A stretch of 37,368 bases of DNA from a virus: positions 1-37,368 of the IMG/VR virus record IMGVR_UViG_3300010354_000234; one strand, 5' to 3'. Positions 1,644 to 18,017 of the stretch are shown in pieces. Each line of letters begins with the position of its first letter. The stretch's first letter is position 1. The notes under the pieces were generated by a model, which made no database searches, had not been told where the DNA came from, and saw only the letters and a list, made by a program, of their open reading frames with translations. A program made the translations under genes and the position numbers.

Positions 1644-1839
1644 CACTCCCGCCGTGCACCAACCGCAGCGCTGGCGACAGCCTCGCAGGCTCGACGAACC
1701 GACGCATACCGTCGTCGCATTCGACCATGACTGCCACGCCATCGCGCCATTCGCGCGGTGGCTGTAGTACCCTACCCGACACGATAGACCCGTCGGTGAG
1801 CCGCAAAAGCACCCTATCGCCGCCGAGCCAGCGCCTCAC
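1639..1839 (-). CDS. small uncharacterised protein downstream of the helicase loader
   Basis: A 66-residue protein begins at GTG 1839, overlapping the stop of the DnaC-like gene as GTGA. It reads RRWLGGDRVLLRLTDGSIVSG and then EWRDGVAVMVECDDGMRRFV, suggesting a small beta-rich fold. No family is assigned. Its position suggests it is translated together with the helicase loader. Confidence 0.6.
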   Translation of the reverse strand: MRRWLGGDRVLLRLTDGSIVSGRVLQPPREWRDGVAVMVECDDGMRRFVEPARLSPALRLVHGGSA

Positions 1840-2450
1840 GTTGCACCCCCGATCTCGACGCTGGCCTGCGCGTGTAGCCGACGGGTCATGCCGTCGCCGT
1901 ACCTGCGCGTGAGCTCGTCGGGTCCAAGGCTCGTCGTCACGATGGTGCAGCGCCCCGCTCTCTCGTTGTCCGCCCGCCTCCACACGAGGTCGCACATTGC
2001 GGCCCGGTTGGCTTCGGTGGCCGCCTCAATGCCGAGGTCGTCCAGCACCAGGACGCGCGTACCTCGAGCGCGGTGCACTTGGTCTGGCGTGCTCCCGTAG
2101 CCAGCCTCCTGCATACTGGCGACGATCTCGGTGCACCTCACGAAGTACCCGATACCGTCGGTAGCCAGGCCGCGCGCGAGCAGTAGTGCCGCTGCCGTCT
2201 TTCCGATGCCCGAGCGGTTGCCCCAGATGACGACTACCCGTGGCTTGCTCCGGCTGTAGGCCCGCAGCTGCTCGATCGCGGGCCAGCCGATGCAGGGTGC
2301 GATCCCTTCCGCCGTCCTCGCCCACTCGTAACTGCGAGGCGCTCCGTAGAGGTCGCGAGGCGGCTCCGGCGGCGCGGGCTGCGGCGGTTCGAGGCGAACG
2401 CGTTGCCCGAGCGCGGTCATGATCTGAAGGAGCTCGTCACCTAGCATCAT
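1836..2450 (-). CDS. DnaC/IstB-like helicase loader ATPase
   Basis: The 204-residue protein starts at ATG 2450 (MMLGDELLQI) inside an ATGATG overlap with the initiator gene. It has a Pro-rich linker at about 20-35, then a P-loop with Walker A GNRSGIGKT (77-85, K84) and Walker B VLVLDDLG (D137, D138). The order resembles DnaC/IstB-type AAA+ proteins, which load the replicative helicase onto origin DNA. Its place directly after a replication initiator is the classic phage arrangement. A C-terminal arginine-rich stretch (TRRYGDGMTRRL) resembles the sensor-2/arginine-finger region of this family. No helicase gene is in the window, so the host DnaB would be the expected partner (inference). Confidence 0.85.
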   Translation of the reverse strand: MMLGDELLQIMTALGQRVRLEPPQPAPPEPPRDLYGAPRSYEWARTAEGIAPCIGWPAIEQLRAYSRSKPRVVVIWGNRSGIGKTAAALLLARGLATDGIGYFVRCTEIVASMQEAGYGSTPDQVHRARGTRVLVLDDLGIEAATEANRAAMCDLVWRRADNERAGRCTIVTTSLGPDELTRRYGDGMTRRLHAQASVEIGGAT

Positions 2451-3580
2451 GCTGCACCTGCCTTGACCCCGGCCTTGTCGCTGTCCCATGGCCCCGGGCC
2501 GAACACCTTGTCGATGTGGTCGAGCTCGGCCTGCGTCACCGGCTGCTTCGCCCAGCCTTCGATCGTGCCCTGGTTGGGATACCAAGCGCGCTCGATCGGC
2601 ACCTCCGACTGGGCGGGCGCTACCTTGGGCCGACCGCGATGGCGCGCGTGGTCGCAGTAGCCCACGACCATGCGACGAAGCGGAGCCGCGGCGATACCCT
2701 CGTCCGCGTGCGCCACGGCGTCGCCAATGGCTCGCGCGACGTCGGCGATGCTCGTGCCGCTACCGATGCGTCGACCGTCGATGACTCCGGCAAGCTCCGG
2801 CGATGCGATGGGCGCTAGCTTCGGATGGCGGCTCAGCTCGGCGAGGATCTTCCTCGTATCCTCGCTCAGCCGTTCGGTGCCGCCGACGCGCGACGCCGTA
2901 GGCGGCGTGTCTGCCTTCGGTGCAGGCGGCGACGTCGGCGAGGCCTCGCGCGCGGGCGCGGGCAGAACACGCTCCTTCGGAGCGTGCTTCTGCTCTGATC
3001 TGATCTGATCTTCTCTGATCTGATCTGATCTAGAGCGTGACACGCTCAACGTGTCACGGCGTGACATTGGACCTAACTGCGCGGAATCACTAGGGCCGAC
3101 ATGCAACACTGTCGCGCCTCTGTCGCCACTGTGTCGCGCCTCTGTCGCCACTGAGTCGCGCCTCTGTCGCGTCTCTGTCGCGACTGAGGTCGCACTCTGT
3201 CGCGTCTCCGATGCGTCGGAGGTCGCTCTCCGGTGCGACTGGCGAGCCGCCGCCAACCCTCGCGCACGCTCGCGCTCGTCCAGGCGAGGCTGGCCCCACC
3301 GGGCGAACGCATACCCATCGGCGTCCTCTGTCCAGGTGCCCGATGCCACCATCGCGGCGATGATGACCTCGGCCTTGCGCGAGCTAGTGCCTACCGCCGC
3401 AGCTACCATCCGCAGCGCGCGGGAGCGCGGGATGCGACCGTCTGTCTCGTGCTGTACCGTCCAGCACAGAGCCACCGTCCAGGCTGCGAGCAGGTCGCCG
3501 CGCCGCACCCGATGCGACGCCGTGGCCGCCTCCACCCAGCCCTGCTCGTGATACCCGCAGTCGAGCTTGGCCCAAGTCAT
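2447..3580 (-). CDS. phage replication initiator-like protein containing the putative origin
   Basis: The 377-residue protein starts at ATG 3580 (MTWAKLDCGYHEQGW). The first 100 residues resemble the winged-helix N-terminal domain of phage replisome organisers, with a helical TVQHETDGRIPRSRALRMV stretch. Residues about 115-160 are an 11-residue repeat (ATSDASETRQS, ATSVATETRQR and so on), followed by an S/R/D/Q-rich stretch and a Pro-rich linker. The C-terminal part (about 230-375) is helical. The repetitive middle is encoded by iteron-like DNA, as in lambda-type initiators whose origin lies in the gene. It is followed by a DnaC-like loader with an ATGATG overlap. The exact family is not certain; the role rests on context and architecture. 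Confidence 0.7.
   Translation of the reverse strand: MTWAKLDCGYHEQGWVEAATASHRVRRGDLLAAWTVALCWTVQHETDGRIPRSRALRMVAAAVGTSSRKAEVIIAAMVASGTWTEDADGYAFARWGQPRLDERERARGLAAARQSHRRATSDASETRQSATSVATETRQRRDSVATEARHSGDRGATVLHVGPSDSAQLGPMSRRDTLSVSRSRSDQIREDQIRSEQKHAPKERVLPAPAREASPTSPPAPKADTPPTASRVGGTERLSEDTRKILAELSRHPKLAPIASPELAGVIDGRRIGSGTSIADVARAIGDAVAHADEGIAAAPLRRMVVGYCDHARHRGRPKVAPAQSEVPIERAWYPNQGTIEGWAKQPVTQAELDHIDKVFGPGPWDSDKAGVKAGAA
2994..3031. repeat. 18-bp duplication with six GATC sites, putative origin element
   Basis: An 18-bp unit made of TCTGA steps (TCTGATCTGATCTGATCT) occurs at 2994-3011 and again at 3014-3031. Together they carry six GATC sites in 38 bp and are markedly AT-richer than the surroundings. 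The period is 20 bp, not a multiple of three, so protein repetition does not explain it. It encodes the S/R/D/Q-rich linker of the initiator. It could be an unwinding element or a methylation-sensitive origin segment (inference). Confidence 0.65.
3036..3058. promoter_or_regulatory. perfect 9-bp inverted repeat inside the initiator gene
   Basis: CGTGACACG at 3036-3044 and CGTGTCACG at 3050-3058 are exact reverse complements separated by CTCAA. A further CGTGACA lies at 3060-3066. Lying between two direct-repeat arrays, it is likely a dyad bound by the initiator or another dimer, and part of an origin. Confidence 0.6.
3111..3242. repeat. about twelve 11-bp iteron-like units, putative replication origin
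   Basis: From 3111 the sequence runs in 11-bp steps, each beginning GTCGC or a close variant: GTCGCGCCTCT, GTCGCCACTGT, GTCGCGCCTCT, GTCGCCACTGA, GTCGCGCCTCT, GTCGCGTCTCT and onward to about 3242, with decay toward the right end. Three units make 33 bp, so the encoded protein shows an 11-residue repeat. One helical turn per unit and location inside an initiator gene fit an origin of the lambda O type. The role is inferred. Confidence 0.65.
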
Positions 3581-3887: not shown

Positions 3888-4031
3888 TCAGTCAGCGATC
3901 ACGCCATCGGTCCGGTGCTGCACCGTCCAGGCTAGCGCTACCGCCCAAGCTGCCAACAGCTCGGCCCGTCGTGCTCGTGCGCCATCGATCCAGCGCGCCT
4001 CATACCATCCACAGTCAAGTTTCGCCCACAC
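3888..4031 (-). CDS. 47-residue truncated relative of the initiator N terminus
   Basis: Starting at GTG 4031 the frame reads VWAKLDCGWYEAR, then LLAAWAVALAWTVQHRTDG, and stops at VIAD. It is clearly homologous to the first about 50 residues of the initiator (WAKLDCGYHEQGW, LLAAWTVALCWTVQHETDG). An excellent Shine-Dalgarno AGGAGGT lies seven bases before the GTG, so it may be translated. It ends where the full protein continues into its winged-helix region. It is either a decayed copy left by recombination or a functional short form. It lies directly beyond the CRISPR array in the same orientation. Confidence 0.65.
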   Translation of the reverse strand: MWAKLDCGWYEARWIDGARARRAELLAAWAVALAWTVQHRTDGVIAD

Positions 4032-4101: not shown

Positions 4102-4608
4102 GTCTCAGATTCCATGGCCCTGAGCAGCCCTTGCAATGCGCCGAGCGTTATACCGTCTCAGGTTCCAGGGCCCTGAGCAGCCCTTGCTATTGTGCTCCTC
4201 CGACATAGCAAGTCGATAGCCACAAAAGGTCTCAGATTCGATGGCCCTGAGCAGCCCTTGCAACATCGGCGTAGAGCCCACGCGCTCCGCCTTCGCTCGA
4301 GTCTCAGATTCCATGGCCCTGAGCAGCCCTTGCAACGCCGCGCCCGGTAATGGTGTCTCAGATTCCATGGCCCTGAGCAGCCCTTGCGATATTGCTTGCG
4401 GCGATGTCGTCGTCCTTGACGTCGACATGTCTCAGATTCCAGGGCCCTGAGCAGCCCTTGCGAGAGGATGCGCTTGATGTTTTCGACCGTGGGCTTGAGG
4501 CGTCTCAGATTCGATGGCTCTGAGCAGCCCTTGCAATACGTTCGCCACAGAGCAGTTCGCGCTCCCGCACTGGCGGTCTCAGATTCCAGGGCCCTGAGCA
4601 GCCCTTGC
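4102..4608 (-). CRISPR. eight-repeat CRISPR array of the Cas12m-like system
   Basis: Eight 33-nt repeats lie at 4102-4134, 4155-4187, 4229-4261, 4301-4333, 4355-4387, 4429-4461, 4502-4534 and 4576-4608. Read on the minus strand, the same direction as the cas12m gene, each starts GCAAGGGCTGCTCAG and ends ATCTGAGAC (CCTGAGAC in the second), followed by the spacer. Two further bases upstream (usually TT) are semi-conserved. Spacers at 4135, 4188, 4262, 4334, 4388, 4462 and 4535 are 20, 41, 39, 21, 41, 40 and 41 nt. CTCAG and CTGAG can form a hairpin near the 3' end of the repeat, and every repeat variant maps to its 11-nt loop. The spacers differ from each other and none was seen elsewhere in the window by eye. 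There is no obvious separate leader; transcription may come from the early operon. Confidence 0.95.
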
Positions 4609-4666: not shown

Positions 4667-6391
4667 TCACTCCGCGGCCTCGGTCGCGTGTTTCTTGGCC
4701 CACTTCGGAGCGCGGATCTCGCGGACCTTGCCGCTTTCGTCCTTGGCTCCTCCCTTCTTCCACGACCACGCGCCGGCCTCCTCGAGATCCAACATCGTGC
4801 GAACGGCCGCCTCGTCGATGTCCCTCGCTTTGCCGCACGAGGTGCATTCTCTAACCCACGTGTCGCCGGTGTCCTTGTGGTCGCAATGCCGGCACGCTTG
4901 ACTCAGGTAGCTAGGATCGACCCAGACCACTTCGGTCATTGCAGAATGCAAGGCCTCGGTCAGCACGTAGGGAGCAGTCTCCACACGCTGCGCCCGCGCT
5001 TCGTCCGGTAGGTCCGGCGCGCCTTCTCCGATACCGGGCAGCTTTGCCATTTCGGCCCAATCGGCCGCCATCAAGATGGCGCGACGGTATCGCCTCGACA
5101 GCTCAGCCACCGCGATCCTGTAGACTTCGCGACGGTAGCGAGTCGAGTTGAGCCTCTGGTCGTGCTCCCATCGCCACAGGTGATGATCGTTGTAGCGCCA
5201 CGCCTCGATCGCTCCGTAGTCGCTCGCGTGTTCAGGAGCCACGCCAGCCGCTTTCCATCGTTGCGCGAGCGCTACGAATCGCCCCGGCGATCGCCACTGG
5301 TATAGGCTCGACGTCGCATCGCGCAGCCATACCGGCCAGCCCTCGCGAGCCAAAACTAGGCGCGCCCGTAGTTCGTCGAGATTTCGATCGCGAATCGATC
5401 GCAACGACTCGCACTTAGCGAACCCGGTCAGAACACGCTCGGGGCACTCGATTGTGCCAGCGTCCCCATCGTCGCCGAGCCAAGTAGCCACTCGCACGTT
5501 CCCGCTAGGCTCTTTTCGCCAGCCAAGATGAACCGCCACCTTGCCGCCATCGGGCCGGTCGCGGAGCCTGCACGTCGACGCGTCGATCGTGACCTCGACC
5601 GACCACTCCTCACGCGGCCCGCGCATGCGTAGCGATACGATCGCTCGCTTGATCCGGGCATTGGTGGGCAGCGGCCGGTGATACACCATCGGCCAACGTG
5701 CCCAGACCGGCACGCCCTTTTCGCTGCTTACGCGCATGGCAAGTTCGGTGCGCTTCGCCTTGCGCGTCCCCTCGACATATTCAGGCCAGCGAAGCCGAGT
5801 GTCCGAATCGCCGACGACGTCGTCGACGTCTGCACCGCCCTGGATCTGCACCGAGACCTGTCCAGAGCCGTCCCAGCGCTGAAATCTCAGCTCGCCCTTC
5901 GTGGTCTTTGCCGCCTGTTCGGCCGCCGCTTCCGCTAGCAGATAGGTCCCCCAATAGACCCCGCAGTGAGCGCGAGCGGAGATCTGCAGCTCGTGAGCCC
6001 TAGCGTCGACTTCCGCGATCCTAGGTCGCAGCTCGGATTGCACGAGCGGCTTGATGGCTCGCAGATCGAGCACGGCAGCGGCCTTAGATGCTTTCAGTGA
6101 CCGGATCTCGGACTTGGTCTGCTCGGTGTCTGCTTTGGTTCGGCGCGCCACTCGAGCTTGTCGAGCTCGCTCTACCGCTTCGGAGATCTTCGCGTCGATT
6201 TCCGTGATCTTGGCTTCGGCTTCTGCGATCCGCGTGTCGCTCGACATGACAGCGGCAAACGCCAGCCTTCGGCCTCGTTCGATCGCGATGAGGTCGTTCT
6301 GATAGCGATGGCCGAGCCGCATTTGCTGCCTGACTAGCTCGCTGTTCTCAGTCGGAGCAAGCAACCCGTACCTGTAGACCCTCGTTGTCAT
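4667..6391 (-). CDS. cas12m: Cas12m-like (type V-M) RNA-guided DNA-binding effector
   Basis: The 574-residue protein starts at ATG 6391 (MTTRVYRYGLL), overlapping the upstream gene as ATGA. I recall Mycolicibacterium Cas12m as about 600 residues, with matching blocks RFQRWDGSGQVSVQIQ (169-184) and KVAVHLGWRKE (284-294). A long charged helical region spans about 53-130. The RuvC-I position has H288 (HLGWR) instead of Asp. The RuvC-II region AILMAADWAEM (438-448) has Ala where the acid would align, with D444 nearby. RuvC-III keeps D524 and D526 (RDIDEAA). A zinc-ribbon pattern C500-x2-C503 and C516-x2-C519 is intact. The tail is basic. Characterised Cas12m proteins bind crRNA-matched DNA next to a TTN-type PAM and silence without cutting; this one likely does the same. 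It is downstream of phage metabolism genes and followed by its array. A TnpB-like nuclease is a less likely reading, given length and array. Confidence 0.88.
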   Translation of the reverse strand: MTTRVYRYGLLAPTENSELVRQQMRLGHRYQNDLIAIERGRRLAFAAVMSSDTRIAEAEAKITEIDAKISEAVERARQARVARRTKADTEQTKSEIRSLKASKAAAVLDLRAIKPLVQSELRPRIAEVDARAHELQISARAHCGVYWGTYLLAEAAAEQAAKTTKGELRFQRWDGSGQVSVQIQGGADVDDVVGDSDTRLRWPEYVEGTRKAKRTELAMRVSSEKGVPVWARWPMVYHRPLPTNARIKRAIVSLRMRGPREEWSVEVTIDASTCRLRDRPDGGKVAVHLGWRKEPSGNVRVATWLGDDGDAGTIECPERVLTGFAKCESLRSIRDRNLDELRARLVLAREGWPVWLRDATSSLYQWRSPGRFVALAQRWKAAGVAPEHASDYGAIEAWRYNDHHLWRWEHDQRLNSTRYRREVYRIAVAELSRRYRRAILMAADWAEMAKLPGIGEGAPDLPDEARAQRVETAPYVLTEALHSAMTEVVWVDPSYLSQACRHCDHKDTGDTWVRECTSCGKARDIDEAAVRTMLDLEEAGAWSWKKGGAKDESGKVREIRAPKWAKKHATEAAE

Positions 6392-6711
6392 TTGTCCTCG
6401 ATTCCTTTGACCATCCGAAGCGCCTCGTGATGAGGCACCCCGCTCTTTACGTACGCCCTGTGAAAATCTTCCCACGGGCCCCACCAGCGCTCGGCCTCAC
6501 CGGCCGCCAGCTCCTCAGCCGTTGCCCGTGGGACCTTGGCATCGACCTCGATGATCGCAGCTCGCTCGCATCGCGGACAGATCTCGTCGACGCACGCTTG
6601 CTCGCGAATGTGCGCCAATACCCGCCGCTGGTAATCGTTCAGCCCAACGCCGGCTTGCCGCTTGCGCATAAGCGCAACAAGCTCGGCCGCGCTGTATGTC
6701 ACTCCAGCCAC
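6388..6711 (-). CDS. uncharacterised protein with CxxC, upstream of cas12m
   Basis: A 107-residue protein from GTG 6711, overlapping the MazG-like gene by 13 bp and cas12m by ATGA. It contains VDEICPRCERAAII, a possible half zinc site, and a Trp-rich stretch ERWWGPWEDFHRAYV followed by PHHEALRMVKGIEDK. The tight coupling to cas12m means both proteins are translated from the same mRNA. No similarity to known Cas or anti-CRISPR proteins is evident; it looks like an ordinary small phage protein. Confidence 0.65.
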   Translation of the reverse strand: MAGVTYSAAELVALMRKRQAGVGLNDYQRRVLAHIREQACVDEICPRCERAAIIEVDAKVPRATAEELAAGEAERWWGPWEDFHRAYVKSGVPHHEALRMVKGIEDK

Positions 6712-16270: not shown

Positions 16271-16638
16271 CCGTGACGAGCCTCCATAGCGAGCGTGTGC
16301 ATCCGCTCCCACCCGACCGGGAGCAGCGGAGGCCGAAACCCAAGTTGCGAGACGATGGCCCACAGCCTCGGCTCACACGCGAGAATGAAGCGCTCTTCGT
16401 GGTCAGCGTCGAACACGTTCGAGGCGTTGCCAGCGCCAGCGCAGTGCAGAAGCTCGTGAATCAGCGTATTGCACAGCTCGTCGACTGGTTGCGCTGCACT
16501 CAGCTTGATGATGCGCCGGTCGTAGTCGCAAACGCCGTACAGCTCCGATCCTGTCTCGCTAAACAGGCGCGGAACGATGACGACGCGCCACACCTCGCGA
16601 GGGAGGCGGAATCGGAACCATTCGAGCCGTCGCCTCAT
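16267..16638 (-). CDS. small HExxH metallopeptidase-like protein
   Basis: The 123-residue protein shows NTLIHELLHCAG, with H61, E62 and H65 as a zinc site, in a SprT-like or phage-type small peptidase fold. A third ligand may be in FDADHEERF. It overlaps the repeat protein and the phosphoesterase through short overlaps. It could process the host wall or proteins; the substrate is not visible. Confidence 0.65.
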   Translation of the reverse strand: MRRRLEWFRFRLPREVWRVVIVPRLFSETGSELYGVCDYDRRIIKLSAAQPVDELCNTLIHELLHCAGAGNASNVFDADHEERFILACEPRLWAIVSQLGFRPPLLPVGWERMHTLAMEARHG

Positions 16639-18017
16639 TTGAGCGCAATCGTAGCCGTTGCACGCCGCATTGCCAACGTCGGCACGATTGAGCGTTCGAG
16701 CTGCACCGCATTCGCGGATCGCTGCACTGCAATCGTGTTTTCGATCACGGCTCGCGTGAATGATTCGGATCCAGCGATTGCAGTAGCTATTGACTCGGAA
16801 TCGAAGAACGTCGTCCCGACAAGCTCGGCTCCGATAGAAATCTCGGCGACGGCTGCCGAATCTGCGACCGTTGGGACCTCGGCCGTTTCGGATGTTGCGA
16901 CTGCGTCGACGACGCTTGCGACATCGTTGAACGAATATCCGAACGTCTCGGCCTGCGAGCTTGCTTCGGCGTATGCGACAGCGTCGAGGAATACGACTGC
17001 GAACGATTCCGCGCCGGCCGTGGCGTCGACCGTAGCCGCTACGTCGAGAGCGACGACGTCGAACGCATCGGACCCAACGAACGCGTCGGCGTAGGTGGCC
17101 CCGTCGTCGAATACGTCGCCGGTCGACTCTGCGCCCACCTCGAGGTCGACCGAGGCCGATGCGTCGAGCACCGTGATCGTAGCCAGCTCTGCACCGGCGA
17201 AGGCCTGGACGATAGCCGCAGCGTCGAGCGCGACATGGTCGACCGTCTCGGGCCCAACGAACGCGTCGGCGTAGGTCGTGCCGTCGAGCGCTACGTGCTC
17301 GATCGTCTCCGTGCCTGCTACGGCGAGCGCTTCGGTCGGAGCATCGTCGAATCCCGGCGTAGGGATCGCGATGACCTCGGGGACGATCGTGGCCTCGGCC
17401 ACAGCGACGACGTCTGCGATCGGCGCGTCGAACGCCTCGGCTCCGACGAAGGCTTGGCCGAGCGTCGCATCGTCGAGCACTGTGATCGCGGCCGTCTCGC
17501 TGCCTGCGGCAGCATCGACCACGGCCAACCCGTCGAGCATGACGAGCGCGACGAGCTCGACACCGGCGACAGCGTCGACCGTCGCGGCGACGTCTAGCGC
17601 CACGTTGGTGAGCGTTTCCGCTCCGGTCGAGACGTTGACCGCTGCGACCGCGTCGAGCGCGACCAGGGCGGCCGTCTCGGTGCCTGCGACAGCGTTGACC
17701 GTTGCGGCTACGTCGAGCGCGACGTGCGCTGCGGTGTCCGTGCCAGGTACGGCCGAAACGTTCGCAAACGCATCGACCGCAACGTGCGCGACGGTTTCTA
17801 CGCCTTCGAACGCTTCAACGATTGCAGCCGCGTCATCAAACTGGACGACGACGGCTGCGGTCTCAGCCCCGACGAAGGCGTCGACAGTGGCGGCAGTATC
17901 GGCCGCGACGAGCGTGAACGTCTCGGTCCCTACGACGGCGTCGACCGTTGCGACACCGTCGGCGACGGTAATCGTCTCGTCGTAGAATAGGACCGGGAGT
18001 AGCCGCTGCGTGATCAC
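16635..18017 (-). CDS. repeat protein of about twenty 20-residue units
   Basis: The 460-residue protein starts at GTG 18017 (GTGA overlap). After MITQRLLPVLFYD come nearly 20 units following ET-x4-VALDVAATVDAVAGT: for example ETAALVALDAVAAVNVSTGA, ETLTNVALDVAATVDAVAGV, ETVDHVALDAAAIVQAFAGA. One unit near residue 210 is expanded (PEVIAIPTPGFDDAP), and the tail from about 430 is basic and not repeated. The composition is Ala, Val, Asp and Thr rich with no Cys, as expected for an elongated beta-helical fibre. I know no family with this repeat. It lies among virion fibre genes, so a surface fibre or decoration is likely. Confidence 0.75.
   Translation of the reverse strand: MITQRLLPVLFYDETITVADGVATVDAVVGTETFTLVAADTAATVDAFVGAETAAVVVQFDDAAAIVEAFEGVETVAHVAVDAFANVSAVPGTDTAAHVALDVAATVNAVAGTETAALVALDAVAAVNVSTGAETLTNVALDVAATVDAVAGVELVALVMLDGLAVVDAAAGSETAAITVLDDATLGQAFVGAEAFDAPIADVVAVAEATIVPEVIAIPTPGFDDAPTEALAVAGTETIEHVALDGTTYADAFVGPETVDHVALDAAAIVQAFAGAELATITVLDASASVDLEVGAESTGDVFDDGATYADAFVGSDAFDVVALDVAATVDATAGAESFAVVFLDAVAYAEASSQAETFGYSFNDVASVVDAVATSETAEVPTVADSAAVAEISIGAELVGTTFFDSESIATAIAGSESFTRAVIENTIAVQRSANAVQLERSIVPTLAMRRATATIALK

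Follow-up and report, generated by a model that had tools for sequence, protein, structure and literature searches.

The DNA between about 2968 and 3242 of the genome analysed here very probably serves the phage as its origin for theta replication, located inside its own initiator gene and operating by the mechanism proposed below. An intragenic origin is a known arrangement among phages and appears here in another phage, with support from relatives; a probable origin is thereby placed in an uncultured phage. The window, i.e. the whole stretch of DNA that was analysed, is the entire virus record of 37,368 bp, and coordinates are those of the window unless a contig is named.

The initiator gene and its repeats

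The gene that contains the repeats had been called an initiator in the preliminary description, and its product indeed matched the profile phrog_2447 ('replication initiation protein'), as did all 12 members of the initiator protein alignment. It gave no Pfam match and no O-like PHROG match at E-values up to 0.1. The gene directly downstream encodes a DnaC-like helicase loader; its start at 2450 was picked by comparison with contig L319, and the initiator-loader gene order is the same in L319 and L032. A helicase loader gene adjoining the initiator gene is a trait of phage intragenic origins and was found in the window. An AlphaFold model of the initiator, built with 11 relatives, had a mean pLDDT of 67.5, with values of at least 90 over much of residues 20-120 and below 50 over most of residues 139-235. 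The order of secondary-structure elements predicted at residues 14-92 is that expected of a winged helix-turn-helix. A fold search of the PDB with this model yielded only weak matches, none below E=0.001 and several of them to winged-helix proteins, and a search of BFVD returned phage primosomal and uncharacterised proteins. The two genes and the parts of the initiator are:

1836-2450, minus strand: gene of the DnaC-like helicase loader (phrog_50, E=8.4e-14; IstB_IS21)
2447-3580, minus strand: replication initiator gene, 377 aa (phrog_2447, E=1.9e-9)
Initiator residues ~14-92: predicted winged helix-turn-helix (helix-helix-strand-helix-helix-strand-strand, confident in AlphaFold)
Initiator residues 100-136: long helix (AlphaFold)
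Initiator residues 139-186 and 199-235: linker, predicted to be disordered, whose DNA holds the repeats
Initiator residues 240-311: C-terminal helical domain (AlphaFold)

The repeats were confirmed at the positions given in the preliminary description. Read along the coding strand, the winged-helix part is followed by iterons (3242 to 3111), palindromes (3066 to 3033), a GATCA tract (3031 to 2989) and a hairpin (2986 to 2968), as listed here by window position:

2968-2986, strand not assigned: 8-bp hairpin CACGCTCC-TTC-GGAGCGTG, beyond the unwinding tract
2989-3031, minus strand: 5-bp tandem repeat tract (GATCA on the coding strand; TCTGA pentamers, 8.6 copies, 43 bp)
3033-3066, strand not assigned: cluster of three overlapping palindromes
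3033-3047: palindrome GAGCGTGACACGCTC, overlapping the 9-bp dyad
3036-3058: exact 9-bp dyad CGTGACACG-CTCAA-CGTGTCACG
3052-3066: palindrome TGTCACGGCGTGACA, overlapping the 9-bp dyad
3111-3242, minus strand: 11-bp iteron array (core GTCGC on the plus strand, GCGAC on the coding strand)

The array comprises ten clear and two degenerate units, so that the earlier count of about twelve was fair. In register from 3111, eight units start with an exact GTCGC (3111-3177 and 3199), those at 3188 and 3221 are shifted by one base and those at 3210 and 3232 are degenerate. Iterated repeats that look like binding sites and lie in the initiator gene are a trait of phage intragenic origins, and the window has them. 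The repeats were compared with codon shuffles in which synonymous codons were permuted 1000 times, leaving protein sequence and codon counts unchanged, p=0.001 being the floor. A preset region (gene nucleotides 271-660) and best-window scores were used, and the position of the repeats was therefore not tuned, while the periods were picked after the repeats of the window had been seen. The best period-11 window scored 45/60 against a null of 30.8 +/- 3.2, period 22 scored 51/60 against 32.6 and period 5 scored 30/35 against 18.0 (p=0.001 for each). Because the period-11 and period-5 signals exceed those of the synonymous-codon shuffles, selection acted on DNA in the linker-coding repeats, as the preliminary description had argued from the periods; its view that the protein tolerates a low-complexity linker agrees with the disorder predicted at both linker segments.

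The linker is of low complexity, with many R, S, T and D residues, which could mean that a repetitive linker is itself the selected protein feature and that the DNA pattern is its by-product. We consider this extremely improbable, since none of the periods 5, 11 and 20 is a multiple of three, the DNA repeats surpass what synonymous codon choice yields and the protein sequence of the linker is unconserved. Tandem Repeats Finder detected no comparable period-5 or period-11 array elsewhere in the window.

Imperfect repeats of another kind, of ~60 bp (20 residues), were seen at 17563-17744 in a 460-aa ORF (16635-18017, minus strand), which perhaps encodes a structural protein.

The 9-bp dyad is exact, as described earlier, and the palindromic half-site TGTCACG is one base away from the iteron sequence TGTCGCG. 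Nine short palindromes were counted in the repeat region against 2.6 expected (codon shuffle, p=0.015); taken by itself as a hairpin stem, the dyad reached only p=0.073. The dyad as an operator repeated elsewhere was ruled out, there being no further exact CGTGTCACG in the window outside it.

The six GATC sites reported earlier in an 18-bp duplication are present (2997, 3002, 3007, 3017, 3022 and 3027), but the duplication is 19 bp long (CTCTGATCTGATCTGATCT, found at 2993 and again 20 bp further on, at 3013) and is really part of a period-5 tract, its true repeat unit being the pentamer TCTGA. A role of GATC as a Dam-methylation element was not supported, because relatives keep the period of 5 and not the repeated GATC. 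The tract is a probable DNA unwinding element. The 60 nucleotides at 2990-3049 are 53% AT, within the top 0.12% of the window, and the AT-richest 60-mer of the initiator gene starts at 2973. An AT-rich tract beside the repeats is a trait of phage intragenic origins found here, although such a tract is not unique, as 60-mers equally or more AT-rich occur in at least six further places of the window; an AT content of only 53% at best counts against the origin reading. An excess of inverted repeats over the codon-shuffle level was seen in the 160 nucleotides after the array at 7 of 35 loci, versus 1 of 29 for a control region, which is only suggestive of a conserved hairpin as a third origin element. 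GC skew, which in the window follows gene direction and is thereby confounded, showed no switch at ~3 kb.

From this arrangement we infer the following sequence of events. The winged helix of the initiator would bind the 11-bp iterons as well as the TGTCACG palindromes; these sites would recur on one helix face, and the bound protein would build a compact nucleoprotein complex. This complex would open the neighbouring tract of 5-bp repeats, which is richer in AT. The C-terminal part of the initiator would then recruit the DnaC-like loader from the next gene, and the loader would put the host DnaB-type helicase onto the opened strand, allowing the origin to fire.

Relatives of the initiator and turnover of sites

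Single-sequence searches of viral contigs with the initiator and the loader found no relatives; those of the initiator were gathered by an alignment query blind to their repeats. The closest, L319, has an initiator 43% identical to that of the window, beside a 2.9-kb flank that is 87% identical. Absence of the repeats from close relatives that keep the protein had been proposed earlier as evidence against an origin, and the outcome is divided: the 11-bp array is absent from L319 (codon shuffle, p=0.998), whereas palindromic sites and a period-5 tract of its own (p=0.001) are present. L319 carries TGTCACGCCGTGACA twice and GTCACGGCGTGAC once, i.e. three GTCACG-S-CGTGAC palindromes, together with several further GTCACG sites, and the window holds a palindrome of this kind once. 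The array is thus not indispensable to the lineage, which counts against the origin reading.

By the codon-shuffle test, 11-bp arrays are present in L032, L318, L323, L324 and L326 and absent in L319, L325, L315, L316, L327 and Microbacterium phage Footloose. In L032, L323, L324 and L326 the 11-bp iterons are flanked by GTAACGGCGTTAC or near copies of it, and the palindromes of the relatives share the core GTNACGSCGTNAC. GTCCC/GGGAC sites together with period-5 repeats were found in L315, L316 and Footloose, and similar sites with a period-5 tract in L327; period-5 tracts occupy the same place in L319, L316, L327, Footloose and the lactococcal phage Tuc2009. Every tested relative except L325 had at least one DNA-level signal at p<0.05. 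L319, L032, L323-L326 and Footloose resemble the window in having related initiators and the same layout (sites, often palindromic, followed mostly by period-5 repeats), but the sequences of the sites differ. Since L319 lacks the 11-bp array yet has palindromes and its own period-5 tract, the sequences compared indicate a layout that is mostly retained and sites that turn over.

One further feature bears on the history of the gene:

3891-4031, minus strand: remnant of the 5' part of another initiator gene, of the L319 type (match to the initiator with E=7.6e-15)

This remnant corresponds to the first 46 codons, and its 46 aa share 91% identity with the L319 initiator; an older initiator therefore was probably replaced in the lineage of the window. 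With near-identical neighbouring DNA and different initiators and sites, the window and L319 form a natural test of how initiator and sites change together.

The phage also encodes a Cas12m/Cas12u1-like protein (4667-6484, minus strand; PADLOC Cas12u1, E=8.4e-90; PDB Cas12m, E=4.9e-49) and a CRISPR array (4102-4608, plus strand) of eight repeats, in which most spacers are 36-38 nucleotides long and two only 17-18 nucleotides. In the L319 record, the Cas12m gene product is 94% identical and the spacers differ. A search for protospacers of the window array's spacers found none.

Comparison with known phage origins

In one source (PMC8965321), the replisome organizers Rep2009 and TP901-1 ORF13 are described as binding repeats in their own genes that act as origins. 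Our reading of the sequence of the Tuc2009 rep gene (GenBank AF109874), which is annotated as containing the origin, found 11-bp iterons followed by AGGAT/AGGTT pentamers, with codon-shuffle values of p=0.005 for the iterons and p=0.001 for the period-5 tract. Tuc2009 (Lactococcus, P335 group) is thus like the window in having its repeats in the initiator gene past the N-terminal domain, 11-bp iterons preceding a period-5 tract. It differs in its iteron core (CAACC instead of GTCGC), in having no excess of palindromes (p=0.45) and in its next gene, annotated as a putative topoisomerase where the window has the DnaC-like loader. Because homology between the initiator and Rep2009 was not detectable (hhalign probability 0.1, the aligned part being the winged-helix region), the comparison rests on layout.

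In Bacillus phage SPP1, oriL lies in gene 38 and combines initiator-bound direct repeats with an AT-rich unwinding element, the phage helicase loader gp39 acting along with it (PMC6316719). On this published description, from which the SPP1 side of the comparison is taken, the window is alike in its direct repeats, its AT-rich element inside the initiator gene and its loader partner; SPP1 differs in having a second origin, oriR. The lambdoid origin sits midway along gene O and combines four iterons, each an imperfect inverted repeat of 19 bp, with an AT-rich tract; replication gene P lies in the same region (PMC7466680). The window shares the mid-gene position of iterons and AT-rich tract, but its unit measures 11 bp and its initiator matches no O-like family. 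The earlier likening to a lambda-type origin therefore does not hold in detail, and Tuc2009 is a closer model for the array than lambda. On our analysis the best reading is a probable intragenic origin like those of SPP1, Tuc2009 and lambda; as a putative assignment, the origin proposed earlier fits both the relatives and these published precedents.

The repeats might instead be sites at which the initiator is titrated for autoregulation or copy control, replication beginning elsewhere. In this case too, the initiator would bind repeats within its own gene, and cloned rep repeats are stated to give phage-encoded resistance in lactococcal phages (PMC8965321). The same source, however, reports the repeats of these very phages as the origin; an AT-rich tract, which titration does not need, recurs beside the arrays, and the window has no other array of this kind. 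We therefore regard titration without origin function as unlikely and retain the origin reading.

Iteron arrays in other viral contigs

Three GTCGCNNCTNN units were found in nine other viral contigs of IMG/VR, in seven of which they lie inside an initiator-like gene, always in antisense. In these seven the place is similar to that of the window array and the orientation is the same, with an AT-rich stretch just downstream; they represent about five independent cases, since L009 and L011 share one protein and the proteins of L005 and L010 are nearly the same. Stretches with four perfect GTCGC at constant spacing numbered at least 120 in IMG/VR for period 11, 57 for period 10 and at least 120 for period 12. 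For each array, the longest ORF spanning it was scanned against PHROG. At period 11, among the matches listed, 26 of 84 covering ORFs belonged to a DnaD-like helicase loader family, 19 of 84 to an O-like initiator family and 14 of 84 to a primosomal family (the counts overlap). At period 10, 6 of 52 ORFs fell in each of two initiator families, and the period-12 control gave, among the matches listed, at most one per such family among 78 ORFs scanned. A preference for periods 10-11 and not 12 is consistent with helical phasing of DNA and not with codons.

Among the matches listed, 50 period-11 ORFs were antisense to the array, which mostly lay at residues 110-160; the next 90 nucleotides averaged 53% AT versus 45% gene-wide. 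The AT-richest 50-nucleotide stretch was located 0-150 nucleotides downstream in 35/50 cases at period 11, 8/23 at period 10 and 19/62 at period 12, again among the matches listed. Period 5 as a universal feature was ruled out, being weak in the GTCGC set (combined Z 1.9). Iterons of helical-turn length, called unusual in the preliminary description, are not so: period-11 GTCGC arrays lie inside initiator genes of many IMG/VR contigs, and 11-bp repeats were read, by eye for the last three, in rep genes of phages of Lactococcus, Bacillus (phage Palmer), Listeria and Staphylococcus (one phage each). GTCGC iterons at helical-turn spacing may thus mark initiator genes across many phages, which suggests a simple DNA signature for phage origins in metagenomes.

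These data also bear on whether the repeats are neutral low-complexity DNA, produced by slippage during replication where the encoded linker tolerates change. The predicted disorder of the linker and the rapid change of repeat sequence between relatives would suit slippage. Distant initiators nevertheless share a similar array position, the orientation, a period of 10-11 and an AT tract thereafter, initiator genes are nearly absent at period 12 (among the matches listed), and palindromes with the common core GTNACGSCGTNAC are no product of slippage, which makes this explanation very unlikely next to an origin.

It is possible, if somewhat doubtful, that very distant winged-helix initiators of many tailed phages share one blueprint, in which 10-11 bp iterons, often GTCGC, in linker-coding DNA precede a short-period opening tract (5 bp in several families) and the sites are exchanged along with initiator alleles; the survey behind this proposal was seeded with one core sequence. 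The window and L319 would then exemplify a natural exchange in which initiator and sites were swapped together beside an 87% identical region.

Paired, inverted 11-bp GTCGC arrays, ~50-70 nucleotides apart and outside long ORFs, were also observed (L019, 1880-2080; L024, 2420-2620; L029, 2500-2710; L061, 870-1070); this different layout may represent an origin or operator of another kind.
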